A program made the position numbers and the translations under genes. The notes beneath the pieces are model-generated. The model did not search any database, was not told the DNA's origin, and worked only from the letters and a program-made list of their open reading frames with translations. Shown here in pieces: positions 1 to 43,893 of a stretch of DNA of 52,505 nt. The stretch's first letter is position 1. Each line of letters opens with the position of its first letter. This DNA is from Sulfurovum sp. (GTDB taxonomy: Bacteria > Campylobacterota > Campylobacteria > Campylobacterales > Sulfurovaceae). The stretch spans positions 1-52,505 of the forward strand of contig JAAXPZ010000012.1 in assembly GCA_012329065.1 (NCBI GenBank), written 5' to 3'.

Positions 1-405
1 CTATTCCTTGTTGATAGGATAAAACATGAATCAAATTTTGAAATATTTAATTTAAATGAAATATATAGTGAAGAAAGAAATTCTCTTCATTATAATGTTC
101 TTGAAGCCATAAAACAATTAGGTATAGTAGATGATGAAGTATTTAGACTCCTTAAAAAATATGGTCATGAAGAAAAAGAAGTGCTTTCATCTTTAAAAAT
201 ACTTGAGGATAGAACAAATAGTTTAATTGTGCCATTAAGGACTAACGAAAGTATTAGGGGTGAAAGAAGTATTGTAATGGTTACTGAATATGGCATTACA
301 AAAAAAGGAGAAAAATATTTAGAGATGATTGACTTGGATGATGAATGGAAATGTTACAGAGATGTTATTGGTTTGCCTGGAAAAAGTATTAAGGAGTTAT
401 TGTGA
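1..405 (+). CDS. Unrecognised protein, C-terminal 134 residues (5' end outside window)
   Basis: The frame is open from the first base of the window and stops at 403-405, so the start lies upstream. I do not recognise the family. The visible part is mostly helical and charged, beginning with LFLVDRIKHESNFEI and ending in a segment (EYGITKKGEKYLEMIDLDDEW) that resembles the end of a winged-helix or effector domain, but this is only an impression. It overlaps the next gene by 4 nt, with that gene's AAGGAG ribosome site inside its last codons, so the two are translationally coupled. The sequence is far more AT-rich than the core genes right of 6223, which suggests recent transfer. Function unknown. 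Confidence 0.6.
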   Translation, partial: LFLVDRIKHESNFEIFNLNEIYSEERNSLHYNVLEAIKQLGIVDDEVFRLLKKYGHEEKEVLSSLKILEDRTNSLIVPLRTNESIRGERSIVMVTEYGITKKGEKYLEMIDLDDEWKCYRDVIGLPGKSIKELL

Positions 406-743
406 TAGATGAAAAAATGTATTTCAAGCCTAGTGTTGTTTTTGATGTGACTTCAATGTCATTAAGATTAATACCTAGAGGAAAAATAAGAACCTATAGG
501 GACGGGGAGGATCTATATAAATTATTTTCTTCTTTGTATAAAGATATACATCCAGATATGAAATATAATGAATTTATAGATTTATTAAAAATTATATTTC
601 CTGTATATAAAAACCCTAGAAAATTAACCAATGAGTTTAAAATTACAACTTTTGGTTTGGATAAAACTTTAAAATCAATTGGTATTAGACATTTTCCAAT
701 AAAAACTCTTACACAAGAGGAGATACTTCAAATTGAAATGTAA
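402..743 (+). CDS. Unrecognised 113-aa protein, coupled to the preceding gene
   Basis: The GTG start at 402 is chosen because AAGGAG (391-396) sits 5 nt upstream and the start overlaps the previous stop by 4 nt. The protein begins MIDEKMYFKPSVVFDVTSMS and ends with LTQEEILQIEM; it has no membrane segment, signal peptide or cysteine cluster. I do not recognise it. It may be the small middle component of a multi-gene cassette whose large gene lies left of the window. Composition is AT-rich like its neighbour. A role in genome defence is possible given the island setting, but nothing in the sequence shows it. Confidence 0.6.
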   Translation: MIDEKMYFKPSVVFDVTSMSLRLIPRGKIRTYRDGEDLYKLFSSLYKDIHPDMKYNEFIDLLKIIFPVYKNPRKLTNEFKITTFGLDKTLKSIGIRHFPIKTLTQEEILQIEM

Positions 744-840
744 GACATGTTATTTTTACCATGATAAAAAATGTATACTGCATAAACAAACAATAATGCC
801 TGTTTTTTGTTCTACTTATATAAAAAAATTTATGGGATAG
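733..840 (+). CDS. Tiny cysteine-rich (putative zinc-binding) protein, 35 aa
   Basis: A TTG at 733, 10 nt after an AGAGGAGA ribosome-site-like stretch, opens a 35-codon frame overlapping the end of the previous gene by 11 nt. The product starts MKCKTCYFYHDKKCILH and has C3-x2-C6, C14, H17 and C26, spaced like a small single-zinc knuckle. The positions of these residues and the coupled start are the only support. It could be a real accessory subunit of the cassette at the left edge or chance. Function unknown. Confidence 0.4.
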   Translation: MKCKTCYFYHDKKCILHKQTIMPVFCSTYIKKFMG

Positions 841-965
841 ATTCTACAGAGAAATATATAGATATAGTTTATGGTCGAAAGCAAAATTTAAGAGTTTTTA
901 CTATTTCAATAATTTCTTTGTTGATATCTTTATCAGTTCTTATTTTGAAAATTATTGATACTTGA
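807..965 (+). CDS. Possible 52-aa single-membrane-segment protein
   Basis: An open frame can be read from TTG 807 to the stop at 963-965, overlapping the previous small frame. Its C-terminal half (VFTISIISLLISLSVLILKI) is a clear hydrophobic segment preceded by a basic stretch, so if translated it would be a small inner-membrane protein. There is no convincing ribosome site and the start is uncertain. It is the last possible gene of the AT-rich cassette. Low confidence. Confidence 0.25.
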   Translation: MFYLYKKIYGIDSTEKYIDIVYGRKQNLRVFTISIISLLISLSVLILKIIDT

Positions 966-1041
966 GTAGCCTAATGAATTAGATAAAAATTTATGGGTCA
1001 GTCGCCACATTAAAGATACCCTATAATGATACCAATAGTAA

Positions 1042-1985
1042 CGATATTTACGGGGTGATGCTAATGCTATCTCTGCCTTTATGCCCACTGAGGTACTCAT
1101 TAGAGACTCCTCTATTTCTAAAAAGCCCTACGTATGTGACGCAAAAGACTACTGCTGGAAAGTGCAGAGAGGTGTACCTGAGTACTCCATATTTAACATC
1201 TTTAACCTTGGTAGCAAAAAGCAAGTAGAACTGTACGAACAAGGCATCATAAACATACAAGACATACCAAGTACCTTACCATGACAGCCAAACAAAGCCA
1301 AGCCGTACAGAACTACAAGCTAGGCGTAACACACATAGACAAGGAAGCCATAAAAGCATTTCTAGGTACTCTGAGTTACCCTATCTACCATTTAGACTTT
1401 GAGACCTTTCAACAAGCTGTACCAGAGTGGAAAGGCATCAGTCCATTTATGCAGATACCCTTTCAGTATTCACTACACATAGAGCATGAAGACGGTAGGC
1501 TTGAACATAGTGAGTTTTTAGCAGTGGATAGAGTAGACCCTAGAGAAGAGTTAGCACAAAGACTCTGTGCTGACATACCCAGAGATGTAACAGTTTTAGC
1601 ATACAGTATGAGCTTTGAAAAAGGAGTCATCAAAAAACTTGCTTTGGAGTACGAGTATTTGAGTACACACCTCATGGCAATACACGACAACATAAAAGAC
1701 CTCATGACACCATTTCAACAAAAACACTATGTCGCCCCTAGTATGAATGGAAGCTACTCCATCAAGTATGTTTTGCCTGCTTTAGTACCTGACATGAAAG
1801 ATGCATACAAAGAGTTAGATGGTGTACAAAATGGTACAGAAGCCATGAATGCATTTGCAAATATGTCAAAGCTAGAAGATGATGAGAAAGAGAAGGCGAG
1901 AATAGGGTTGTTGTCGTACTGTGAGTTTGATACTTTGGCGATGGTTAGGGTGCTAAATAAATTAAAAGAGGTTATGCATGATTGA
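1042..1985 (+). pseudogene. DUF2779-family protein remnant, 5'-truncated and frameshifted
   Basis: Two adjacent frames together resemble the C-terminal half of DUF2779 proteins. Frame one (1042-1283) contains PYVCDAKDYCWK, the cysteine motif typical of the cluster region in this family; frame two (1281-1985) carries YHLDFETFQQ, an acidic exonuclease-like motif, then LAYSMSFEKGVI, NGSYSIKYVLPALVP and YCEFDTLAMVRV. The join at about 1278-1284 needs a one-base shift, and the stop at 1039-1041 plus the lack of the usual long N-terminal part show truncation. Full-length members are much longer than the roughly 315 codons here. Homology is to a family of unknown function thought to be nuclease-like; I infer a dead gene. 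Confidence 0.7.
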
Positions 1986-2080
1986 TTATACAAAAAAATA
2001 AAAGTTGATAATGGGCATTTCTTACTGACAAATGCACTGACAGTATCGCCTAAACAATGTGCTTTAGAGCTTTAAATGGT

Positions 2081-2096
2081 GATGAGGGGAATTGAA
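2081..2096. repeat. Left end (att-like) copy of the ssrA 3' end
   Basis: The 16 bases GATGAGGGGAATTGAA recur exactly, in the same orientation, at 6230-6245 inside the 3' end of ssrA. The four bases before it (TGGT) also match the tmRNA CCA end if a 3-base gap is allowed. A direct repeat of the tmRNA 3' end at this distance from a P4-type integrase is the classic mark of an integrated element. Attachment-site function is inferred. Confidence 0.75.
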
Positions 2097-2156
2097 GATA
2101 ACGCTATAGCGATACCTACCAATGTACTTGTTAAAAATACCCCCTAAAATTTTTTA

Positions 2157-2261
2157 TTAGTGTGGGTTCTTTGTATGCTTTTCTGTGTAGTGTAGATAAG
2201 CAATAATAGCTAATCCAATAACTGCAAAGATACTACCCACTATAATTATGGCTTCATTCAT
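2157..2261 (-). CDS. 34-aa single-pass membrane protein
   Basis: The product, beginning MNEAIIIVGSIFAVIGLA, has one hydrophobic helix (residues 4-22) followed by a hydrophilic, histidine-containing tail ending HTKNPH. The start codon overlaps the stop of the upstream 60-aa gene by 4 nt (ATGA), indicating translational coupling. No catalytic motif is visible and I cannot assign a function. The intact frame and tight coupling, in a region where most other genes are broken, suggest the pair is still kept. Confidence 0.6.
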   Translation of the reverse strand: MNEAIIIVGSIFAVIGLAIIAYLHYTEKHTKNPH

Positions 2262-2440
2262 TCTTTAGCTCCTTTATTTGTTAGATACATGCCTACACCC
2301 CAAAGTACCATGATCACTAAGATAGCACCAAATGAAAAACTGGTATCTTTCATAATTGGAGATATAAGCGTTAAGGCTATTAATATTTTAGAAACATCTA
2401 AAAAGTATTTACCTAATTCTTTGAGTGTTTCTTTCTTCAT
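2258..2440 (-). CDS. 60-aa membrane protein with two hydrophobic segments
   Basis: Starts MKKETLKELGKYFLDVSK with an amphipathic lead, then two hydrophobic stretches (about residues 17-28 and 35-53) ending LTNKGAKE. It is first in a two-gene unit with the 34-aa protein, sharing an ATGA overlap. It lies just inside the left end of the ssrA island. Function unknown; small paired membrane proteins of this sort can be toxins, subunits or stress proteins, but nothing here discriminates. Confidence 0.55.
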   Translation of the reverse strand: MKKETLKELGKYFLDVSKILIALTLISPIMKDTSFSFGAILVIMVLWGVGMYLTNKGAKE

Positions 2441-2492
2441 AAAGTGATTATAACATAATTAGTGAAACCGTGTTGGACTGCATAAGAGTACA

Positions 2493-2824
2493 TCATAACA
2501 CATACTCCCAACACTGGTACTTCTCAGATATGCTTTTCACATCATCAAACACCCCAACATTGTACTGCTCTTGTGTTGGTGTTTGATGAGGTTGTGGGCT
2601 TGGTGCTGTACTTTGTCCGTATGATGGTTTGGAGTCAAGCATAGTAAGGTTCTCTACACTAACACTATGTTTACTTCTTTTTTGTCCTTGCTTGTCTGTC
2701 CATTGGTCTAGCTTTATCCGTCCGTCTAGTTGGACTTTTGAGCCTTTGCGTAAATACTGGTTGGCTACCTCAGCAGAACGCCCAAAAAAGATACATCAAT
2801 AAAAAGCACCTCTTCCTTTTGCGT
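2493..2824 (-). pseudogene. ssb: Single-stranded DNA-binding protein fragment (ssb-like)
   Basis: Reading the minus strand, EEVLFIDV, then after a one-base shift in the A-run at 2784-2789, GRSAEVANQYLRKGSKVQLDG... and RSKHSVSVENLTMLDSK are the second half of the bacterial SSB OB-fold, followed by a Pro/Gln-rich linker. The N-terminal third of the fold is missing upstream of about 2824, and the tail ends QCWEYVL instead of the acidic DIPF-type tip that binds partner proteins. Plasmids and integrative elements often carry their own SSB. Truncation, frameshift and lost tip make this a non-functional relic of the element. Confidence 0.75.
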
Positions 2825-2865
2825 ACCGTGCTTTCAGAGACTAGGCTCTAAATCGTGTACCAATT

Positions 2866-2885
2866 CATGTACCACTTGGTACATG
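2866..2885. repeat. Perfect inverted repeat, 8-bp arms, 4-base loop
   Basis: CATGTACC and GGTACATG face each other across ACTT, and the GTACCA core occurs again just left at about 2857-2862. It sits between the ssb relic and the toxin remnant, about 45 bp beyond the toxin 3' end. It could be an operator or the hairpin of a terminator (no T-run follows). Function not shown. Confidence 0.4.
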
Positions 2886-2930
2886 GAACTGAATTCAATT
2901 CTACTTATTGGGATTGAAGTATAGCATTTT

Positions 2931-3412
2931 TTACTTGTTTACGAGGTCATTAACAATTTCTTTTGACCACTGAGGTAGAGGTGTGTTGAGGATAATATTT
3001 TGTTCACCTCTTGCCCCAGATTTACGAAGTGAAGCAATAAATTTGTAATGGGTTTGAGAATTATCAAACAGATAGAGACCTTTAGCATTTAAAGCTACCT
3101 CTTTAATCTGCTGCATACTTTTGTGATAGCGTCTTACAACAATACCAGGATCAACGAAATGTCCTTTGTTTTGCACTCTTGTACGTACCCTTTGAACATT
3201 AAGTAAGGGGTCACTTAAAGCGATATAGACAATATAAAGTTCATACCCTTTGATCCATTGGGTAAAAAATCGCCAAAAATCTCTTTGGCTATATCGTCAG
3301 GATTTACAAAAGGTAATTTTGAAAGGGTTTTGTATTTGCCGATAAGTTTTCTATATAAAGTAGATTTCCCAGACCCATTTGGACCGGCAAGTAGGAAAAG
3401 TTTTTTTACCAT
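2931..3412 (-). pseudogene. Zeta-like toxin ATPase/kinase with internal deletion
   Basis: The N-terminal part (from 3412) begins MVKKLFLLAGPNGSGKSTLY, a P-loop at residues 10-18, followed by PFVNPDDIAKE, as in zeta-type kinases. It then runs out of frame at about 3240; the rest, KGYELYIVYIALSDPLLNV... RVRTRVQNKGHFVDPGIVVRRY, is the C-terminal half in another frame. The middle of the fold, including the region expected to hold the second substrate-binding arginines and the conserved ETTLS-type motif, is absent. Zeta toxins phosphorylate UDP-N-acetylglucosamine in characterised systems. Here deletion and frameshift should abolish activity. It starts 3 nt after an antitoxin-like gene. Confidence 0.75.
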
Positions 3413-3415
3413 ATT

Positions 3416-3634
3416 TTAGAGATTTACTACCGTTTCATTAAAGTCTTCATCGATTTGCACAGTTTCTTTTGTGCCATTAGGGTAGAGTTTTGTCATGATG
3501 CCATTTGCCATGCCAGACTCTTTAAAGTATGCAGGTATACCATTATGCAAAAGTTCTTTAGTATTGTCATTCATTTCGATACTATGTATATCTTCAAAAA
3601 TAGTTTCGATATCTAGTTCTATTTTTTTAACCAT
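3416..3634 (-). CDS. Putative antitoxin of the zeta-like toxin, 72 aa
   Basis: An intact, acidic 72-aa protein starting MVKKIELDIETIFEDIHSIE and ending in a strand-rich segment (KLYPNGTKETVQIDEDFNET). It directly precedes the toxin remnant on the same strand with only 3 bases between stop and start, the usual antitoxin-first arrangement. I do not recognise the sequence as classical epsilon; the assignment rests on position and size. If the toxin is dead, this gene is a free antitoxin that could still neutralise related toxins. Confidence 0.5.
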   Translation of the reverse strand: MVKKIELDIETIFEDIHSIEMNDNTKELLHNGIPAYFKESGMANGIMTKLYPNGTKETVQIDEDFNETVVNL

Positions 3635-3851
3635 AATGCCCCCATTTAGTATTTTTATGATTATACCATAAGTAAAATGGCATGAAATATTTTTATTTTG
3701 TCTGACTTGACGCTCCTTAACCTTAAACGAGCGGATAAATAGTATAAATATTTGCCCATAATTTATCTCAAAAGTAGAATTATATATAACTATATATTAT
3801 AATAATGCACAAAACATATCTAGTTTAATATTATTCTAATGTAGAGTATAG

Positions 3852-4220
3852 CGTTTACAACCCCTTAAAATTACAGAGAAAGAGTATCAAGTCATTAAGA
3901 GTAAAGCCAATTATTAGGCATTGAGTACTTCATCGTACCTTAGAACTCTTGGGATGAACTATAGGCTTAAAAGTAAGATAGATGCTATTGCAGTAGATGA
4001 ACTTGTGAAAGCTAAGGCAGATTTATGTCGTGTAGGTGGGTTTTTTAAGTTGTGGCTTGTGCATCATGCTAACGGAAAAGCAAATCTTGGCTCAAAGTCA
4101 TATAGTGAGGTAGAGAGTATCGTTAACGAATTAGAAAAAAAGCAGACGGAACTCTTGTCTAGTGCAAGTTACCTAATGAATGGATGCAAAGGACGTATCT
4201 CTACCACTATAAAATCCTAG
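3852..4220 (+). pseudogene. TraJ/MobC-like relaxosome accessory protein, nonsense-mutated
   Basis: The frame reads PLKITEKEYQVIKSKANY, a TAG stop at 3915-3917, then ALSTSSYLRTLGMNY, LVKAKADLCRVGGFFKLWL and a coiled-coil-like VNELEKKQTELL. The order helix-turn LSxSSYLR, then DLxRxGGxxKLWL, then a C-terminal helix matches TraJ of the IncP plasmids, the oriT-binding relaxosome protein. The internal stop and a C-terminus that runs into unrelated sequence show decay. In IncP plasmids traJ and traK diverge from oriT; here this frame runs toward traK, so part of the region may have been inverted. No relaxase gene is visible. Confidence 0.7.
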
Positions 4221-4533
4221 ATGGGTCTATACCTGCAGTATGCGGATTAAATCTTGCACCTCCACCAAAGTCTGCTCTGGCTATGACAGGACTATCATCG
4301 TGGGTCTCTACTTTTGGTGTTTCTTTTTCTACTACATACTTGACAGTCTTTTTTAGAGGCAGTTCTTCTTTGGCATACTTACAAAAACTCCAGTAAGACA
4401 TCTCCCATCCTCTACGCTTTTTCATCTCTTCATAGAGGATTTTAAGCACCACATACCCACTACTGTAAAGCTCTTTTATCTCATGTAGAGAGGTGTAAAA
4501 CTCTATTTTCTGCATTCCGCGTTGATTTACCAT
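4207..4533 (-). CDS. TraK-like mobilization protein, 108 aa
   Basis: The protein contains IEFYTSLHEIKELYSSGY, MSYWSFCKYAKEE and a C-terminal GARFNPHTAGIDPSRIL, the layout of small TraK proteins of Campylobacterota and IncP-type transfer regions: an N-terminal helix-turn-helix of the 'Y..L/F..Y' type, a Lys/Glu linker and a conserved short tail. TraK wraps oriT DNA in RP4. The start at 4533 (MVNQRGMQK) could also be the internal Met at residue 7. It reads away from the oriT-like hairpin at 4705-4728, as expected. Intact, but without relaxase partners in the window it cannot support transfer alone. Confidence 0.6.
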   Translation of the reverse strand: MVNQRGMQKIEFYTSLHEIKELYSSGYVVLKILYEEMKKRRGWEMSYWSFCKYAKEELPLKKTVKYVVEKETPKVETHDDSPVIARADFGGGARFNPHTAGIDPSRIL

Positions 4534-4704
4534 AGCTAACCTTTTTTAAGCAATATTTGGCAAATTATAGCCAATATAAGCAAGTTTAAGCAAACTATGT
4601 TTGATTATCATTTATAGGGGTTAGTTTTTATACCAATATGCTAAAATATATGAAAATTTATTTCTATTGGTTTATGTAGAAAGGCAGGATGGGTTTTCAG
4701 TGTC

Positions 4705-4728
4705 GTAAAACTGCGTTTTACTATCCTG
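4705..4728 (+). other. Candidate IncP-like origin of transfer (oriT) with nic motif
   Basis: GTAAAAC-TGC-GTTTTAC (4705-4721) is a perfect 7-bp hairpin with a 3-base loop, immediately followed by TATCCTG (4722-4728). The nick region of IncP/P-type oriTs is an inverted repeat followed by a core of the form ATCCTG; the match, the adjacency to traK (172 bp to the left, reading away) and the nearby traJ remnant make an oriT the best reading. Nicking would be expected within TATCCTG. Binding by a relaxase is inferred, not shown. Confidence 0.6.
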
Positions 4729-4908
4729 AAATCGTCCTGAGGCTTATTTGCTACTGTGTAGCTCAACGGAAATTTATAAGAAGGCGTGAAGTATGGAAAC
4801 AATCAAGATATGCATATAAATTTATGCCAAAAGTAACAATATTTAAATCTGAAAGTGGCTACACAATGAAAGTTGAAGGTAGCAGTGGGACTATTGAAGT
4901 TGAAAGAG

Positions 4909-6093
4909 TTAGCTGGTTTCCCTCTCATCCAACCACTCACCCCACCACTCCAAAAGCTCTCTCCTCTGTTCCAAATACTTAGCTCTATTGTACGCTTGTG
5001 CCACTTTAGACCCTATCTTGTGAGCCAACTGTACCTCTGACCTCAGATGAAAAATCACTCTTTTCATGGGCAATGGTAGAGAACATAGCACGGAAGCCAT
5101 GAGGGACTATGCGGTCATTGCTGTAGCCTTATAGTAGTACGCAAGGCTTTACCTAGCGTGACATCGCTCATGGGAGCGTTTAGGTCTCTGTTTGAGTAAA
5201 ATATATATTTACCACCTTTGCTAAAGTGCTTGGCTTGTTTGAGTATCTCCATGAGTTGCTGTGAAAGTGGTACTATATGTTCATCGCCTATTTTCATCTT
5301 CTTCCCAGGGATAGTCCATAGCTTTTGCTCAAAGTTTATCTCGTCCCATTCTGCCAAACGGAAATTGCCGGGGCGAATGGCAGAGTAAGCTAAAAAAAGA
5401 AGCCCAAGCCTAACCATGACCCACCCAGTATAGCAATCTATGGCAGATATGAGTTTGCCTATCTCCTTTGGGTCTGTGATGGTAGGGTAGTTTCTACCCG
5501 TTGATTTTTGTAGTACCATACTCCTGTCTATGTCTGCACATGGGTTTCTCTCTGCTTCTCCATGCGAGACTGCAAACTTGAAAACTTTGCTTATCTGTGT
5601 AAAAAGTCTCTTGCCAGACTCTAACGCACCTCTATCTTGTACAGACTTGATGATAGGGATGATTTGCTTGGCTGTTATCTGGTCAATAGGGAGTTCTCCT
5701 ATGATTGGGTTGGCATCTCTTCTGAAAAGGCTTTCTACACCCTCCCAGTATTTTTCGTTACGGTCTGCTTTGTAGTGAGCTAGATAAAGATGTACCATCT
5801 GCGAAAAAGTCTTTTTTTCTTCTATGGTCTCAGCCTTTTCTTTGATGCGAGGGTCCATGCCATTTGCTATCTGTTCTTTAAGCTCATCTCTCTTGAGCCT
5901 TGCCATTTTGAGACTAATGGCAGGGTACTCACCTATACTAAGTCGTGTACGTTTACCCTCTATGGTACACCGCAACCTCCAAAGTTTTGAACCTGTAGGT
6001 TTGACTTCTAGCTGTAAAGCTTCCACCATCGTTAAGTGTCTTAGTCTTGGTAGATGCTTTTTCTGATCTTACTTTCGTATCGGTCAATAACAT
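4909..6093 (-). pseudogene. int: P4-type tyrosine integrase, broken by three indels
   Basis: The start MLLTDTKVRSEKASTKTKTL (6093) is the DUF4102 N-terminal arm. Frame changes follow: (1) one extra base in the A-run 6016-6018, after which VKPTGSKLWRLR and LSIGEYPAISL continue; (2) one extra base near 5129-5130, just before GYSNDRIVPHGFRAM (the H-x-x-R motif); (3) a 7-bp near-duplication at 5034-5047, before QLAHKIGSKVAQAYNRAKYL with the catalytic Tyr. All catalytic boxes can be found across the three frames, so the gene was intact until recently. It lies with its start 130 bp from the tmRNA 3' end, as for elements that use ssrA as target. Confidence 0.9.
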
Positions 6094-6222
6094 AGTGGTA
6101 CATCCTAAATAAGTGAGTCTTAGAGCAAGTGTATTAATAGTATACATGGGCATATATAGCGTGAATATAGGCATTTTATGAGATGTTTTGATATGAAGTG
6201 ATTTGTTAAGATATGATTGTTT

Positions 6223-6621
6223 TGGTGGAGATGAGGGGAATTGAACCCCTGTCCTAAAATAGCTAGAACTATGACTCTACATGCTTAGTCAGTGTTGTTA
6301 ATTTTAATTAGGTTTTGTACTACACTCAAAACTTTGCCTAACGAGCTAGAATTCTCACACCATGGCATAACTTCCATGGAGCATAGTCACCAGATGTGAT
6401 ACCCAAGGTGCAAGCACCCCCAAATAAATGGGCTCCGATTAAGATGACACTCCTCGGTAGGGCAGTCCTCCGACGAATCGGGGTTAATGACTTACGCTAC
6501 TGCGTAAGCTGGACGGTAATCTGTGTTGTTTGCGTTTAAATGCGTTTGAGCCGCGTAACGGAATTGCTCAGTCCGACATGCACATAGCCCCGACTACTCC
6601 AGTCGAAACCAAGTCATCCCC
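6223..6621 (-). ncRNA. ssrA: Transfer-messenger RNA (tmRNA)
   Basis: The 5' end GGGGATGACTTGGTTTCGACT (6621 downward) pairs with the 3' end TCATCTCCACCA (to 6223) in the tRNA-like acceptor stem, and the T-arm GGTTCAAATTCCCC-like sequence is present with an encoded CCA. The internal reading frame, 6492-6533 on the minus strand, gives the tag ANNTDYRPAYAVA followed by TAA; the preceding sequence supplies the resume codon GCA. tmRNA with SmpB rescues stalled ribosomes and tags nascent proteins for proteolysis. Length, 399 nt, is normal. It has its own promoter at 6710-6738. Its 3' end is the insertion point of the island to the left and is still complete. Confidence 0.96.
6230..6245. repeat. Right end (att) copy in the ssrA 3' end
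   Basis: The second copy of the 16-bp direct repeat also found at 2081-2096. It covers part of the T-arm/acceptor region of the tmRNA, the usual crossover segment for P4-type integrases. The element therefore rebuilt the gene's 3' end on integration, leaving ssrA intact. Confidence 0.75.
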
Positions 6622-6709
6622 ATATATCTATCAATAGGAGTCTGGTGTTGTGATGTTGACCCATAGGGTAAACATTTATACACTTAACCCCACACTGAGT
6701 GAGAGATGG

Positions 6710-6738
6710 ATAATAGCACTTTTGTGTTTCTTTGTCAA
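6710..6738 (-). promoter_or_regulatory. Strong sigma-70 promoter of ssrA
   Basis: On the minus strand TTGACA (6738-6733) is followed after exactly 17 bases by TATTAT (6715-6710). Transcription would start near 6703, about 80 nt before the mature tmRNA 5' end, leaving a leader to be trimmed. The -35 box overlaps the last codons of the lysE-type gene, so ssrA has a promoter of its own inside the end of the preceding operon. A consensus -35 is unusual in Campylobacterota and fits a highly expressed stable RNA. Confidence 0.75.
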
Positions 6739-7334
6739 GAGAACAATCTATACAGCATCCCAAGTGCAAAAAAGGAGAGTAAGGCAGCAGAGACAATAGA
6801 GATAATCGTAACTGCTCTCTGAGATAACAAATGTTTAGTCTTGTGTATCAGTAGTGGCATCAGTGTGATCCATAGCAGTATGCCAGAGAACATTCCCACT
6901 ACAGTAAAGACCGTATCTAGTTGTCTAGTTTGAATATAGACAGATACACTGATCCAGAAAACTATAGTATAAGGGTTTAGCAGAGTTAGAGAAAGTCCCT
7001 TAAAATAGTTTGGCAAAATAGCTGTACGGATCTCCTTGGACAAGTGTATCTCTTCGTGCCTTGCTTTGAAAATCATCCATGCCATGTAGAGCAAAAATAC
7101 TGAACCTACTAAGCCCAAAACAAACATCACTGTGGGATTTTTGACAAATGCCATCATCCCAAACAGTATAGCCAGCAGATAAATAGTATCAGCACTCATC
7201 GCCCCAAAACCTATCGCTACAGCACCTGGATAGTTCCGCAAGGCATTGGACATGATAAGAATATTGATTGGGCCTAGAGGAATCGCTGCTCCTAATCCAA
7301 ATAGGAATCCTTCTACTAGTGAGATCCAAATCAT
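6735..7334 (-). CDS. LysE/RhtB-family exporter
   Basis: A 199-aa inner-membrane protein with about six hydrophobic helices. The N-terminus MIWISLVEGFLFGLGAAIPLGPINILI carries the family signature G...PGP-like motif (AIPLGPINI), and GLSLTLLNPYTIVFWISV is the second conserved half-motif (LNP). The family exports amino acids or related small metabolites by proton antiport; the substrate cannot be read from sequence. It is the last gene of a four-gene operon: its start overlaps the previous stop by 4 nt. Placement after an activase/dehydratase-like pair suggests it may export a product or a toxic intermediate of that pair, which is inference. Confidence 0.85.
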   Translation of the reverse strand: MIWISLVEGFLFGLGAAIPLGPINILIMSNALRNYPGAVAIGFGAMSADTIYLLAILFGMMAFVKNPTVMFVLGLVGSVFLLYMAWMIFKARHEEIHLSKEIRTAILPNYFKGLSLTLLNPYTIVFWISVSVYIQTRQLDTVFTVVGMFSGILLWITLMPLLIHKTKHLLSQRAVTIISIVSAALLSFFALGMLYRLFS

Positions 7335-8842
7335 CGAGATATCTTCAGTGCATCTAGCAACTTTGCAGCTGTACCAGTCTTGTCACTTTTAGGGGCATAT
7401 GAAAAATCATGTGCTTTTTCTGATACGCTTTCGACCATCTCTAGTGATTCAAACTCCTCTTTGGCAGCTTGTTTTGCTTTAAATAGTGCCATCTGCACAC
7501 GGGAATAAAAGTTTGCAGCTCCCTCACCTGATGTTTCAATACTCAGAAAATTGGCTTCTGGATATCTTGATACCACAAGTGACTGAATACCGTCAGAGAT
7601 AGCTGATGAAGGCATACAGCCAAAAGGCTTAACTGATATAACCATATGTGAGAGTTTATGTTTGAGGCTCTCAAGTAGGTGCGAAACCTCCATATGTCCC
7701 TCTCCTCCATCTACATCCAGAGGAAAGTACTCCTTGCCCAATCTAGCAAGCTTCTCAATATCTGGCAGCTTATACCCGCTAAGTCCTATCATTTTGGCAT
7801 ATAGTGCAAACTGAACCTTAAATGCAGTTCGAAACAGCCCCATAAGTATCTTTCTCTTGGGTGTACTAAAATCCAGATACCCTGTGCCAGAATCTGTACT
7901 AAGTCCTGATTTTTGATCCTCAAAATACATATATTCCCACATACTTAACAATAGGCGGTTCATAATCGGCTGAGGAATCACCTCTGCACCTTCTGACTCC
8001 AAAAATCTGTGCAGGTTGTAGTTGCCCTCTCCTTCTGTCATAGCTGCCCAAAATTCACCTATTATCATTACTTTTGGCTTTGGGGTAAGCCTATTGAGCT
8101 TGACTCTCTTGAGTACTTGCCTGCACCTATATAATGCCAATGTAAGACTCTTGCGATTCTCTAGGGCTACACTAAGGATATCATAGCAATCCTGCATGGC
8201 TCTATCTACTGCACCTACCTCTACTTCATAAGGTCTCATCTGATGAGTCAATAGGGTCAGTATATCTCCTGCCATGGCAGCCTTGACTGGTCTAATGAAA
8301 AAAGAGGGAGGGAACTGAAGAGTATCTTCTCCCTCAGTGTTCGTAACCCTATTGTGCTCAAAGCTCATCAGCCTAAAGCCCTTGAAGCCTGCATCGTTGA
8401 GTGCTTTTCTATACTCTGTAATATACATACCAAATCTACAAGGTCCACAACCGCTAGCTGTCACATATACATACTTTTGCACAATCTCTTCAGCGGACAT
8501 TCCACTGTTTTTTTGTACTTCAAGGAGATATTTGACAAGGTTTCCAACTGTAAAATAGGTAGGATTGCACTGCCCTCTGTTACCATATGCCTTTCCTGTA
8601 CGGAATGAATCAAAATCTGGATTAGGAAGTGCTATGTACTGCTCTTTCATTGACTTTACTGCGGACATAAGTAGTTTATCTTGAAGTATTGTCAAGCCAC
8701 CAAATAGTATGATGCTATTTTGACTATCCTCGTATGTAAATTTGCTAGGAATCTCTTCACGCCATTGAGATATCTCAGAATTGATAAAATCTAAATTTCC
8801 ATTGCTTTGAGTTCTTTTTATGTTAGCACAAGATATACTCAT
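7331..8842 (-). CDS. 2-hydroxyacyl-CoA dehydratase-like (HgdB/DUF2229-related) iron-sulfur protein
   Basis: 503 aa, soluble. Cysteines expected to bind a cluster are C92 (RGQCNPTYF), C132 and C135 (TASGCGPCRFGMY) and C409 (VKPFGCMPSS); VMIIGEFWA (about 258-266) resembles the second Rossmann-like half of dehydratase B/C subunits. In many bacteria this segment is fused to the C-terminus of the large activase encoded immediately upstream; here it is a separate gene with a 4-nt overlap at both ends. The family uses an ATP-charged electron from the activase for difficult reductions or dehydrations. No canonical HgdA/HgdB pair, CoA-transferase or substrate enzyme is nearby, so the substrate is unknown. 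The double-cubane-cluster proteins are related alternatives. Confidence 0.75.
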   Translation of the reverse strand: MSISCANIKRTQSNGNLDFINSEISQWREEIPSKFTYEDSQNSIILFGGLTILQDKLLMSAVKSMKEQYIALPNPDFDSFRTGKAYGNRGQCNPTYFTVGNLVKYLLEVQKNSGMSAEEIVQKYVYVTASGCGPCRFGMYITEYRKALNDAGFKGFRLMSFEHNRVTNTEGEDTLQFPPSFFIRPVKAAMAGDILTLLTHQMRPYEVEVGAVDRAMQDCYDILSVALENRKSLTLALYRCRQVLKRVKLNRLTPKPKVMIIGEFWAAMTEGEGNYNLHRFLESEGAEVIPQPIMNRLLLSMWEYMYFEDQKSGLSTDSGTGYLDFSTPKRKILMGLFRTAFKVQFALYAKMIGLSGYKLPDIEKLARLGKEYFPLDVDGGEGHMEVSHLLESLKHKLSHMVISVKPFGCMPSSAISDGIQSLVVSRYPEANFLSIETSGEGAANFYSRVQMALFKAKQAAKEEFESLEMVESVSEKAHDFSYAPKSDKTGTAAKLLDALKISR

Positions 8843-11800
8843 ATTAAAACCTCCTGCTTGTTTTGCTTGAATACTGCACTCTCTTCACTGTGTACTGTAT
8901 CCCAACTAAAAGATTTCTGCCAGCTATTTTTGGATAATTGACCAGAAGCTATCTCTTGTGCATATTGCTCAAGTGCGTATGCAAAGGTTTTGACTCTGAT
9001 CTTTATCGATCCGCTAGGTTTGTTGGCATCTATATCATGTAGTGTCAAGTGCGGGGTTTTGCTGGCTCCCAGTATCTTATCAATAATAGCATAAGTTGGG
9101 GCATCATGTCCACATTTGAATGAACTCAAATCTACAACTGCTATATTTGGATGTCGTGCAGCAAACTTGGCGACCCATACCTTCTGAGCAGAATTGGTAG
9201 AGAAATTCTCTGGCCATACATCCCTGATATCATATACTGACTCAATATGTCCTGCTGCTATATCCTGATGAAAATATCTCATCAAATACTCTTCGTCTTT
9301 GGGTATGGATGCTACAGAAAGTGTTTTAAACCCAAGCGACTGAAACTCATCCAGTATCTCATGATTGATGCCAGGGTCAGAGTGGTATGGGCGACCTAGT
9401 AATAGGAGTACCACCTCGTCCTGCCTCTGTGCGATATCCAATATCTCTCTGCCCTGCTGCATCATCTGCTTTTCGTGTGCCTCTAGATACTCCCATGCCC
9501 TATCTGCTGCCCAGTCATTCTCATCTTTGCTGATTTCTAGCCTTGAAAACCAAGTATCATAAAGCTGCCTCTTAAGAAGTTCGATATTATCAAAATGTAA
9601 AGAGCCATCTAAATACTCGACTCCTTTTTGTGCAAATATGTCTCTTTCCTTGACAAATGCTGACCAAACCACTCTGGGAGTACCCGATATGATAGGACAG
9701 GCGGTTTGCCCTAGCGTATGCTCTAAAAATCCTGGCAAATGAGTCAACGCTGGAAACCAAATATAATCTATAGCTTGTCTGACATATTTTTTATGGTGTA
9801 ACAATGCATAAACATGTGATTGGGCTACCTTGGCAGGATAACATGGATCTACAGAACCGTATTTTGCGCCTTCTAGATACATATCTTCATTGGAGTATCC
9901 AGAAAAGATGATATGTTTGGACTGCACTCCAAGTGCCTCCAGATATGCTCTAAGAAATGGGGCTACAGAATAAATACTCAGTACCTGTGGAATGGCTATC
10001 TTGATCTGCTCTCTTTTACTCCTTGAATCTACTGAACTTGTTTCAAAGCTTCTGCTAACTTCTCTCCTGATAGTAGGTCCCCATCCGCCTAATAATACCT
10101 TGGATTGCCACTCTTTAATAAGTGTATCAGATGTCGGAAATTCAAAACTATCTCCCGTAGAAGAGAATAATGTTTTTGCCTCAAATTTGACTAGATTTGG
10201 TACAGATTTTTGAAGAGCCTTTCTCTTGTTTTTTATTTCTACAAATGCCTCTGGAGACTCCACCGTACCATCTTCACACGAGAAACCAGCAATATATCTA
10301 ACAGTATCTGAAGAAGGTGTTTGTGTATCTATGAATGTTCTAGAGCAGTCCATAGGACAAAAGTGACACCTTGTGCTTTCATCTGTTCTTGAAGTGTAGG
10401 TCATCTGTATCGCCTCTTCTAGACCGACAAAGCTACACTCACCTTTGGCAACAACTGTATCTAGTGCTTCCAGAGCAGCACCTATCGCACCTGCTTCACC
10501 AGGATGCGGATGCACATCAACTCTTGCATCTGGGACTCTCTCTAAGATATAGTCAACTTGTGCTTTTAGTGCTGCTTGATTGTATTGAGTGCCGCCCTGT
10601 AATACAAAATGATTTCCAAAAATAGCTAGATTTGGGGCCTGTACCACATATTGCCATACATTTTTTGGCAGAACCTTGGCAATGCCTGCAAATAGTTCCT
10701 CCTTGGCATAACCCTCTTTTTGGAAATTAACCCTATCTGTATCCAAAAATACTGCACAGCCGTAGTTGAATTTAGGTGCTTGCTTGGCAGCAAATGCCAC
10801 CTCAGCAAAGTTCTCCACTGGCACGCCAAACTGCTTTGCCATGCTTTGCAAAAGTGTGCCATTGCCTGCACTGCATTGATTGGATAGGCGAAAGTTTTTC
10901 ATCATGCCATTTTCCAAAAAGAGCACTTTTATATCCTGTCCACCTATATCACATATGACATTAATGCTCTTGCCAAATATATACTGTGCACTCTTCATAT
11001 GAGCGATTGTCTCTATGATATTGACATCAGCCTTGAGTGCCCCCTTAAGCACATCAGCTGCATATCCAGTCACTCCCAGACCTCTGATATCATAATATCC
11101 ATTGGGGTCTTGGGATTTTATCTGGTTTAGCAGATCTACCGTATCCTCTATTGGGTTTCCTTTGGAGAGGCGATACACCTTCAGCAATAGTTGCCCTCGC
11201 TCATCAACCAAAACTGCTTTTGATGATGTAGAGCCACCATCAATACCCAAAATGCAGGTTGTTTTTTGTCTTAGCTCAGGAGAAACAAAAGAATCAATAG
11301 TATATTTTTTTCTAAACTTCTCTAACTCATCATCTGAGCTGACAAGAGGAGCATCGCTATTGTCATCTTGATTGACACCTTGAGTATCTACTAGCACCTG
11401 TAACTGCTGTAAGCCTATAAAATCATATCCCGATATCTCTTCACCTTTGCCAAATATCACAGCACCTAAGGCTGCATAGTATTGTGCATTGTCTGGTACA
11501 AGTACAAGATTGTCAAGCTCTCTAGCATCATACTCTATCTCTCTCTCGGTCCAAAGTTTAGATATTCTTTCTCTCCATGCCTCTTGCAAAAACGGTAGAT
11601 AAGTATTTGGGCCTCCAAGCAGAAGTACTTTTGGCATGAGTGTATTGCCACGGGTTAGTACTGTAAGGTTTTGCATGACGATTGCGTCTGCTAGAGAATT
11701 CATTATCTCATCACTAGGCACGGAACTTTTGACTAGATTGACGATATCCGTCTCAGCAAATACGCCACATTTTGCAGCAACATGATGTAGTTTATCAGAC

Positions 11801-12282
11801 TTAAATGTCAAGCTTTGAAGCTCTTCTGTCTCCATGCCAACCTTCATAGTACACTTCTCTATCGTGGCTCCTGTGCCTGATGCACACTTATCATTCATGG
11901 AAGTAAGGACTGTTTTTTTGCCCTCTTTATCTTCTTTGAAATGAATGATTTTAGCATCCTGTCCTCCCAATTCTATGACTGACCTAACATCTGGATATAG
12001 ATGCTCAACAGCAAGTACTACAGCATTGACCTCTTGGACAAATCTAGCATTGAGTGCTGGAGCAATTCGCGTAGCACCAGATCCTGTAATATACACTTGA
12101 TCTATGTTTTCAAATTCTTCTGCATTTCTTTGGGAAAGCACTTCAAGTATATTGAGTAATGTGGCGGCTTGCCTGGTGTCATGTGCAGTGTAAGACTTGG
12201 CTATAATGTTGAATTTTTCATCACAGAGCACAAACTTGACTGTAGTAGAGCCTACATCAACCCCTAGAGAGTATTGTGTCAT
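8839..12282 (-). CDS. Large double-ASKHA acyl-CoA dehydratase activase (BcrAD/BadFG + DUF2229)
   Basis: 1147 aa with two tandem BadF/BadG/BcrA/BcrD ATPase domains (about 6-280 and 345-610). Each has the phosphate motif (GVDVGSTTVK at 7-16; GIDGGSTSSK at 347-355), the second (IELGGQDAKI; CDIGGQDIKV) and a cysteine pair 39 residues apart: C133/C172 and C470/C509, the spacing of the cluster ligands in HgdC-type activators, where two monomers share one [4Fe-4S]. The tandem could form this dimer within one chain. A CHFCPMDC motif (639-646) and a DUF2229-type region (about 720-1040) follow. The protein is expected to drive electrons by ATP hydrolysis into its partner, encoded next. Stop and start overlaps with lgt and the partner are 4 nt each. 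Confidence 0.85.
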   Translation of the reverse strand: MTQYSLGVDVGSTTVKFVLCDEKFNIIAKSYTAHDTRQAATLLNILEVLSQRNAEEFENIDQVYITGSGATRIAPALNARFVQEVNAVVLAVEHLYPDVRSVIELGGQDAKIIHFKEDKEGKKTVLTSMNDKCASGTGATIEKCTMKVGMETEELQSLTFKSDKLHHVAAKCGVFAETDIVNLVKSSVPSDEIMNSLADAIVMQNLTVLTRGNTLMPKVLLLGGPNTYLPFLQEAWRERISKLWTEREIEYDARELDNLVLVPDNAQYYAALGAVIFGKGEEISGYDFIGLQQLQVLVDTQGVNQDDNSDAPLVSSDDELEKFRKKYTIDSFVSPELRQKTTCILGIDGGSTSSKAVLVDERGQLLLKVYRLSKGNPIEDTVDLLNQIKSQDPNGYYDIRGLGVTGYAADVLKGALKADVNIIETIAHMKSAQYIFGKSINVICDIGGQDIKVLFLENGMMKNFRLSNQCSAGNGTLLQSMAKQFGVPVENFAEVAFAAKQAPKFNYGCAVFLDTDRVNFQKEGYAKEELFAGIAKVLPKNVWQYVVQAPNLAIFGNHFVLQGGTQYNQAALKAQVDYILERVPDARVDVHPHPGEAGAIGAALEALDTVVAKGECSFVGLEEAIQMTYTSRTDESTRCHFCPMDCSRTFIDTQTPSSDTVRYIAGFSCEDGTVESPEAFVEIKNKRKALQKSVPNLVKFEAKTLFSSTGDSFEFPTSDTLIKEWQSKVLLGGWGPTIRREVSRSFETSSVDSRSKREQIKIAIPQVLSIYSVAPFLRAYLEALGVQSKHIIFSGYSNEDMYLEGAKYGSVDPCYPAKVAQSHVYALLHHKKYVRQAIDYIWFPALTHLPGFLEHTLGQTACPIISGTPRVVWSAFVKERDIFAQKGVEYLDGSLHFDNIELLKRQLYDTWFSRLEISKDENDWAADRAWEYLEAHEKQMMQQGREILDIAQRQDEVVLLLLGRPYHSDPGINHEILDEFQSLGFKTLSVASIPKDEEYLMRYFHQDIAAGHIESVYDIRDVWPENFSTNSAQKVWVAKFAARHPNIAVVDLSSFKCGHDAPTYAIIDKILGASKTPHLTLHDIDANKPSGSIKIRVKTFAYALEQYAQEIASGQLSKNSWQKSFSWDTVHSEESAVFKQNKQEVLI

Positions 12283-13070
12283 CTATTGTCTTTTGAGGAT
12301 AAAAAAATTGCCCATAGAGTCCAGAGTAAACCTAATATCACAAACGGCACACTAAGCATCTGCCCTACTGTCAAAGGTACAATTGTGTTATAGTCTGCCT
12401 GTTCTGTTTTAGTATATTCTATCAAGAACCTAGCACCAAATAACAATAAGAGAAAGACTCCAGGAAGTATCTTTGTAGCAAAATCAAAACTTGCCTTGCG
12501 ATAAATCCACAATAAGATAAGTAAAATTATCAAGTATGCTGATGCCTCGTATAGTTGGACTGGATGCCTAGGCAGATTGTCAACACGAGCAAAGATAACT
12601 GCCCACGGCTTAGTGGTCTCAAGTCCAAGAATTTCTGAATTGAAAAAATTTCCTATTCGCACAAAAGCTGCTGTGACCATGCCTGCTATGGCGACTCTTG
12701 ATAGAAGCCATACAAAATCTTTCTTGTATCTTTTAGAGAACATATAAAGAGCCAAGATAGCACCCAACATACCCCCATGACTTGCCAGTCCTCCTTTCCA
12801 TACATAAAGAATCTCTACGGGGTTACTAAGATAGTAATCAGGCTCATAGGCAAAGCAGTGCATAAGTCTAGCTCCAACCACCACTCCCACAACAATATAG
12901 ATAAGAAAATTGTCCAAGACCTTTGGGTCTTTACCTTCTCTTTTATATATCCATTGCATAATAGCCAGACCTATAAAAAAAGATCCGACAAAGAGTACCC
13001 CATACCATCGAAGCTGCAAGGCACCAAACTTTAAGATATTGGGGTCTATATCCCAGACAAAATATTCCAT
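12279..13070 (-). CDS. lgt: Phosphatidylglycerol-prolipoprotein diacylglyceryl transferase
   Basis: 263-aa polytopic inner-membrane enzyme that attaches diacylglycerol to the lipobox cysteine of prolipoproteins. Visible motifs are LRWYGVLFVG, GGLASHGGMLGA (active-site His region), the Lgt signature VRIGNFFNSEILG and HPVQLYEA; seven hydrophobic segments and normal length. The ATG at 13070 has AAAGG 10 nt upstream. It is the first gene of the operon continuing into the activase, a link with no obvious metabolic logic. Substrate lipoproteins in this window include the PqiC-like protein and the CAP-domain lipoprotein. Confidence 0.95.
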   Translation of the reverse strand: MEYFVWDIDPNILKFGALQLRWYGVLFVGSFFIGLAIMQWIYKREGKDPKVLDNFLIYIVVGVVVGARLMHCFAYEPDYYLSNPVEILYVWKGGLASHGGMLGAILALYMFSKRYKKDFVWLLSRVAIAGMVTAAFVRIGNFFNSEILGLETTKPWAVIFARVDNLPRHPVQLYEASAYLIILLILLWIYRKASFDFATKILPGVFLLLLFGARFLIEYTKTEQADYNTIVPLTVGQMLSVPFVILGLLWTLWAIFLSSKDNR

Positions 13071-42892: not shown

Positions 42893-43893
42893 ACAACTAC
42901 TCTATCTATACTCATCGATAACATCGTTGTCATCTCGTAGCTGATGCTGTCATAATGTTTGGCGGCTGTCCTAGCGTCAGTCATGATGCACACTTCGTCA
43001 GCATCACTCTCCAAGGATACAAAATCCATAGAGACTCGACCCAGTATCGGCAATCCCTCCGCTGTCATGTATGGTCTGCTACTGTCTCCTCTCATCCAGC
43101 CATCCCCATAGCCCAAATCATAAGTAGAGGTTGTCATATTTTTCTCTGCTCTAAAGTCGCCCGCATACCCTACTCTCTGCCCTTTTTTAAGCACTCTAGT
43201 AGATATTCGTTTTGCCCAAAGTGATAAAACAGGCTTGAGATTCAACTCTGCATATGCTGAATCCAACTCAAGACCTCCATAGATAGCTATCCCAACTCTT
43301 GCTATATCCTCATCAAAACTTTTGGCTCTAAAAACAGCAGCTGAGTTGTGACTGTGAAATCGCACACCCCCCAAACCACTCTCTTTAGCAATAATCTTCA
43401 CTCTGTTGAAGAGTTGTTTCTGCCAAAAAAGCTCACTACTGAGAATATCTGCAGAACGAAAATGTGTCATTATACCCACAAGATTCATATCTCTAAGCTT
43501 TATAATCCTTAGTGCTTTTTCCAAATCACATATGGCAATACCATTACGATGCATGCCAGTATCTACTTTGAGTTCTATCTTGGCCCTAGTGCCAACACCC
43601 TCCAAAGTTTGCATGTCAGACACTACAAAAGAAAATTTTTTTTCCTCTATTGGCTTGCCCTTCAAGACCAAGATACGACTAAAGTAATCTCTTGCTTGCA
43701 TCGCTTCTTCTGTATCAATGACCACTGCCTGCTTGATACCGAACTCTGCTGATAGTTTTGCCATGATTTCTAGCCCATGGCCATAAGCATTATCTTTAAG
43801 CACTACTGCGATTTTATCTATCGAGCCAGTCTTTAGTGCTATTTGGTTAAGATTATGAAAGAAATTTTCTTTATTGATTTTGATAATTGCCAT
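42889..43893 (-). CDS. alr: Alanine racemase
   Basis: 334 aa. PLP-dependent interconversion of L- and D-alanine for peptidoglycan. The Schiff-base lysine is K33 in [34 protein letters not shown] and the catalytic-tyrosine region [12 protein letters not shown] follow, with [11 protein letters not shown] near the C-terminus. A little shorter than the typical 355-370 aa form. It is convergent with the DUF5644-like gene and divergent from aguA, separated by 61 bp. Confidence 0.9.

Follow-up and report, generated by a model that had tools for sequence, protein, structure and literature searches.

Do two identical repeats at an integration target mark the two ends of one island, or can they have come from different islands? 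The question arises in a stretch of Sulfurovum sp. DNA (GenBank assembly GCA_012329065.1, contig JAAXPZ010000012.1), called the window below, which is the entire 52,505-bp contig C70 of a 1.94-Mb, 82-contig genome and whose sequence ends at base 1. Here GATGAGGGGAATTGAA, a 16-bp copy of the 3' end of the transfer-messenger RNA gene ssrA, occurs at 2081-2096 and, on the same strand, at 6230-6245, and between the repeats lie a frame-broken P4-type integrase gene, an IncP-type origin of transfer (oriT), genes for TraK-like and TraJ-like proteins and a disrupted zeta-toxin gene. The original prediction took the two 16-mers as the ends of one 4.15-kb element. Our analysis indicates instead that they are most likely the left attachment site (attL) of one island, A, and the right attachment site (attR) of another, B, fused by loss of the intervening DNA or by an exchange of ends. 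We consider it highly probable that the locus holds the fused remains of two islands that used the same target with different integrases, and probable, at a somewhat lower level of confidence, that two ssrA islands in tandem collapsed to give 2077-6222; we are most confident of the broader point, that the two repeats do not form the pair of a single island.

The repeat stands in the position and orientation predicted, and its two copies are the only exact ones in the genome (two forward, none reverse), with 0 and 0 for the reversed pattern used as a control. Copies at many unrelated places, which the original prediction had named as evidence against itself, are absent. With up to three mismatches allowed, the window still yields only the same two sites, and therefore no third attachment (att) core, while shuffled windows gave a mean of 0.58 sites at the same tolerance and two or more sites in 13 of 100 shuffles, a control that tallies mismatched sites although both real copies are exact. 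Mismatched copies are thus not rare, which is what could be said for the outer 16-mer being a chance match; however, an exact copy found once outside ssrA in 1.94 Mb, and with a flank that matches another ssrA island end, makes chance a scarcely credible explanation. The likeness between the two sites extends over 20 nt (Table 1), and the target gene has been restored, ssrA being complete by both programs applied.

The evidence that the two cores belong to unlike ends lies in their surroundings. Island A, which carries the integrase and adjoins ssrA, has a distal end at 2825-2918 that is 98% identical over 53 nt to G113:C46 and 88% identical over 94 nt to G121:C77 (family genomes and their contigs are numbered G and C throughout). 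When the 175 family genomes were searched with window 2077-2900, this type-A end was found in 10 genomes besides the window's (G121, G145, G113, G026, G094, G073, G020, G136, G142 and G138), the remaining matches being mostly to ssb. The layout of the end is nearly fixed: in 8 of 9 relatives the core starts 65 nt ahead of the GTGTACC arm, which has paired TGTACCA sites, and the ninth has a shortened core at 61 nt, a count that leaves out G094 (no visible core), G136 (match at a contig end) and G198:C76 (arm pattern unmatched, no core). A near-constant arm distance is also seen on the integrase side in G152, G142, G108 and G198. In the window, the core due at about 2790 was not found, the best ungapped match within 2701-2850 being 9 of 18 nt. 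The far boundary of island A thus has no copy of the target's 3' end, and the repeat that is present is flanked as in a different type of island. Where the core is due lies a truncated ssb relic; its 2646-2821 part is 73% identical to G000:C21:26226-26402, with many relatives matching similarly, and the likeness stops at 2821.

Directly inside the outer core stands GATAACGCTAT, with one CCCCCTAAAATTTT, and the motif at 2140 is the sole copy of CCCCCTAAA or TTTAGGGGG in the window. The core (2077-2096) and its inner flank are 87% identical over 39 nt to G123:C112:27906-27944. The 75 nt past the core (2097-2171) align with this G123 island end at a local score of 47, reached by 0 of 2000 shuffles; against two type-A ends they score 18, which 763 of 2000 shuffles attain, and 22, which 202 attain. 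G017 is a second, weaker type-B relative of the flank (score 40). The G123 island spans the 24 kb between ssrA (3' end at 3969) and a core copy, and its integrase is 42% like that of the window. At its far end the core copy is followed by GATAACGCTAT and two CCCCCTAAA motifs, and its integrase side has the CCCCCTAAA motif twice, which places TTTTAGGGGG-type motifs at both ends of the island. Type-A distal cores are followed by TTTTACTTCCCC or CTACCGAAC in all 9 aligned rows other than the window's. Neither TGTACCA nor TGGTACA occurs within 150 nt of the outer core, and there is no CCCCCTAAA near the 2825 arm. Because the inner flanks and the arm motifs both differ between the 2077 and 2825 sites, we assign the two cores to unlike ends; the parts, their relatives and this mismatch can be read directly from the alignments.

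P4-type integrases join a circular island to the 3' end of their target gene, which is rebuilt in the process. At this locus, both islands would have used the last ~20 bp of ssrA, each integrase recombining its own circular island with the 3' end of the gene and rebuilding it. An island that arrived later would enter at the core rebuilt next to ssrA and so displace the earlier one outward. Island A, with its integrase, oriT, TraK, TraJ and zeta pair, would be the one next to ssrA, with its distal recombination arm at 2825-2918, and island B would be recognised only by the outer att core and arm flank (2077-2155). A deletion between the ssb relic and the arm of A would have taken the common inner att core, and the integrase of B would have been lost as well; the order of arrival, the deletion and the loss of mobility are what we infer. 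The DNA at 2156-2821, with the DUF6722 open reading frame (ORF) and the ssb relic, may stem from either island. The DUF6722 ORF has no homologue among the loci compared. We considered ssb as a known part of type-B islands and set the idea aside: the integrase contigs of G125 and G036 do have ssb, but their integrases lie by tRNA genes, not ssrA.

Could the two cores nevertheless be the attR and attL of the integrase's own element, with ssb and DUF6722 inserted later between the distal core and its arm? In favour of this, the two cores share 16 nt exactly, the sequence occurs nowhere else in the genome, and all DNA between them is accessory; but the inner side of the outer core resembles the G123 end and no aligned type-A end, the ssb gene reaches the junction truncated and not complete, and the arm motifs differ at the two places. 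We regard this origin as quite improbable, and the single 4.15-kb element of the original prediction does not hold, although its caution that 2081 may be an internal boundary was well placed, with accessory DNA continuing to the left as far as the contig end. The main alternative to the collapse of a tandem is that recombination in the core or close to it gave a single island A the distal end of a type-B island in exchange for its own, the two islands never having lain side by side. Such a swap, which we consider unlikely though less so than a single island, would need a further event to account for the lost type-A core and the cut ssb, and G152 shows that real tandems exist in the family.

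Several points weigh against a collapsed tandem. An exchange of ends would yield the identical final sequence, and mosaic islands are common. Type B has just two relatives behind it, a good one (G123) and a weaker one (G017), both flank shuffle tests used mononucleotide (single-base) shuffles, and no island-B integrase or other B gene was identified. The ssb matches of a few relatives run to 2829 and one runs to 2838, and since some of them pass 2821 the junction is not fixed to the base. Arms without a core are found elsewhere (no core is visible in G094 and none was found in G198:C76), so a core can vanish by other routes. Finally, the integrase side of the window retains only one TGGTACA (6096), and a type-A end and a close integrase share one contig in G152 and G142 only, the remaining relatives being tied to type A through common arm sites.

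Table 1. Features of the ssrA-proximal part of the window, from left to right.
Feature	Position	Strand	Basis or relatives
Truncated DUF2779 gene, accessory flank beyond the outer att, outside the islands as defined	1281-1985	plus	Pfam E 1.9e-45
Outer att core (ssrA 3' end copy), interpreted as island B attR	2077-2096	plus	95% of 20 nt vs 6226-6245
Type-B inner flank GATAACGCTAT and single arm-like motif CCCCCTAAA at 2140	2097-2155	plus	
DUF6722 small membrane-protein-like ORF, 60 aa	2258-2440	minus	Pfam 27.9 bits vs cut-off 27
ssb relic, frame-broken, 5' side cut at junction	2450-2821	minus	
Island A distal end, arm sites 2856, 2868, 2877, core absent	2825-2918	minus	
Zeta-type toxin relic	2931-3412	minus	82-86% identical in two pieces to G152 protein
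72-aa ORF, open, paired with zeta toxin	3416-3634	minus	G152 has pair in same order
TraJ/NikA-like gene, 5' part lost, stop upstream of 3921	3870-4220	plus	82% aa to G156, residues 26-132; 80% DNA
TraK-like ORF, 108 aa, open	4207-4533	minus	68% to G113; 77% DNA including oriT in G198
oriT core	4684-4721	minus	CATCCTG/CC and 7-bp inverted repeat 4705-4721; aligned with G198, G113, G097
P4-type tyrosine integrase of island A, at least 3 frames	4909-6174	minus	ORFs 5953-6174, 5115-6029, 4909-5100
att core within ssrA 3' end, attL of island A	6223-6245	plus	
ssrA (tmRNA), intact	6223-6621	minus	ARAGORN; Rfam RF00023 E 2.7e-53

What remains of island A agrees with the decayed island with a P4-type integrase that had been proposed for the 3' end of ssrA (Table 1). 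The integrase piece at 5115-6029 matches Arm-DNA-bind_3, Phage_int_M and Phage_integrase, all over the Pfam cut-offs, and thus arm-binding, core-binding and catalytic domains lie beside the target, in a broken gene. The closest open integrase is a 397-aa gene in G198 (81% DNA identity over 1200 nt), and further open relatives are found in G108, G152, G142 and G005 (78%, 70%, 69% and 65% amino acid identity, respectively). The zeta-toxin relic lacks residues 59-102 of its relative and shifts frame at about 3239-3251; the G152 zeta protein exceeds the Pfam Zeta_toxin cut-off. Judged by its position, the adjoining 72-aa ORF is likely the antitoxin; it matches no NCBIfam family, and its G152 counterpart matches no Pfam family. 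The zeta module occurs once more, with an internal deletion, at G000:C49:1128-1409; this copy is 89-92% identical to window 2890-3023 and 3409-3543 and by eye adjoins a RelBE-like pair.

The mobilization relics and the IncP-like oriT were likewise recovered. In IncP systems, a MOBP relaxase nicks oriT, and TraJ and TraK help binding. The oriT core of island A combines an inverted repeat with CATCCTG/CC, which we take to be the IncP-type nick motif; the nick is predicted to fall between 4685 and 4684 on the minus strand, and by its sequence the oriT looks whole. The TraK-like ORF is so named because it adjoins oriT: its match to Pfam DUF5338 is below threshold (18 vs 25.9 bits), as are those of its relatives in G113 and G097, and its G198 relative matches no family at E 0.001 in a Pfam/NCBIfam profile search. 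The TraJ/NikA-like piece (3921-4220) falls slightly below the Pfam cut-off (25.2 vs 27 bits), and its 82%-identical relative in G156 scores 64.1 bits. We considered an inversion of TraJ and TraK and discarded it, as G156 and G198 have the convergent order as their native one. With two MOBP-type relaxases and one G152 transfer ORF as queries, the window gave no hit at E 1; nor did a relaxase turn up in the genome at E 0.01, in a search that had no positive control, and no type IV secretion system (T4SS) genes were recognised in the window stretch. With integrase and TraJ both broken and no relaxase detected, the island's own transfer appears to be over; use of the putative oriT in trans is possible.

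Intact relatives with the same kind of integrase and repeat, for which the original prediction had suggested a search, do exist. The islands of G152 and G142 have close open integrases and extend for 15.1 and 14.5 kb from ssrA to an ssrA-core copy with TGTACCA arms. In G152, the zeta pair (79-80% DNA identity to the window's) lies immediately inside the distal end and another integrase begins immediately outside it, which makes G152 a live tandem. G198 has the order integrase, cargo, oriT, TraK, TraJ, with about 4.5 kb of cargo absent from the window, and G156 has part of this order, its TraJ and TraK standing 1.7 kb apart with a Fic-VbhA pair between them. As G198 and G156 keep the gene order with extra cargo, island A would be a shrunken, colinear copy. 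By eye, G198 shows no relaxase from the integrase to the contig end, and so the intact type-A kind may also rely on a helper relaxase, although the G198 contig ends there. A related integrase directly at ssrA was found in at least 10 other genomes of the 175 (G003, G022, G025, G033, G122, G123, G142, G152, G186 and G196), a lower bound since the loci come from best matches only, which weakens the suggestion that such an element is less usual in Campylobacterota.

The cargo of the intact type-A relative G198:C14 (locus 7900-12385) comprises a deoxynucleoside kinase, a dCTP-deaminase-like protein, an adenylosuccinate-synthetase/PurZ-like protein (NF038379, E 1.7e-70, below its cut-off) and an RNase_H/AAA protein, resembling a nucleotide-handling, perhaps defence, cluster. 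The type-B cargo of G123 (locus 5501-9190) has PAPS-reductase-like, SMC-like and small ORFs in a row that by eye recall a phosphorothioation cluster. Beside the integrase, the core adjoins not ssrA but a type-A end in G198 (6478) or a third kind of sequence in G108 (1314-1332), neighbours that fit the expectation for tandem or relocated islands or circular forms.

To the left of the outer core, the window appears to be accessory as well, because none of the other 174 family genomes has a homologue of the ORF at 1-402 at E 1e-4 and DUF2779 is patchy, occurring in 28 of the 175 (the window's included); its open frame has 256 aa here, against about 490-520 aa for the majority of the relatives listed. 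The comparison yielded no related genome that shares the left flank. At the DNA level, window 1-6222 gave a single 49-bp match in the four other genomes of the genus, and at the nearest ssrA, that of G004, the contig stops after 408 nt of flank. The 49 nt at window 995-1042 also occur at G000:C69:23932-23980 and G003:C101:43-91 (82-84%), with a transposase-like ORF, by eye, beside the C69 copy. An alanine racemase gene lies near the 3' side of ssrA in G017, G034, G113 and G123 and, in the window, 36 kb away on the other side of ssrA (42895-43893), a difference in placement that suggests that the surroundings of ssrA have been reshuffled between genera.

Among known systems, the nearest are the type-A islands of Campylobacterales Dive100_bin4.86 (G198, JAJRSK010000002.1) and of the Sulfurovum metagenome-assembled genomes G152 and G142, which share the window's integrase subfamily (69-81%) and arm sites and, in G198, its oriT-TraK-TraJ order. 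Unlike the window, all three have open integrase genes and several kb of cargo, and G152 and G142 have, by eye, other transfer-type genes. The TraJ piece is 37-40% identical to TraJ proteins encoded beside TraI in C. fetus plasmids, and the TraK piece is 45-47% identical over half its length to Campylobacter plasmid TraK-like proteins (78 records); in contrast to the Campylobacter conjugative plasmids, the window has no recognised relaxase or T4SS genes.

Tandem ssrA islands and their decay are already known, as is this type of scar. In Dehalococcoides, tandem ssrA islands have ~20-bp repeats and some lack integration genes, but those islands use a serine recombinase (PMC3146451), whereas the integrases here are P4-type tyrosine enzymes and the array is fused and has an IncP-type oriT. 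A review on cis-mobilizable elements (CIMEs) and on accretion of integrative and mobilizable or integrative and conjugative elements describes one element decaying while another integrates in tandem at a common att, with hybrid boundaries, and a class limited to oriT and relaxosome accessory factors (PMC5704250). Measured against such composites, the window keeps its outer cores and has a broken integrase; it differs from the accretion described there in having lost the inner att and in that its two outer cores stem from different island types (PMC5704250). We found no description of ssrA islands of this family in the literature searched, which was judged by titles and mostly outside subscription papers, and the accessible part of PMC5495459 has nothing on ssrA insertion.

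The collapsed tandem that we favour bears on how islands are recognised. Matching repeats at ssrA may come from different islands, which arm sites and flanks can reveal, a point of importance to methods that call islands by pairing repeats at ssrA or tRNA genes; for type-A ends, the fixed 65-nt core-arm layout allows recognition even without the core, in a family in which ssrA is a recurrent landing site. It is improbable, though conceivable, that the composite, with its dead integrase, seemingly whole oriT and unlike outer att sites, can still be excised and carried as a unit given a related integrase and a MOBP relaxase in trans; if it can, collapsed tandems would be a route by which genes of unrelated islands are joined.

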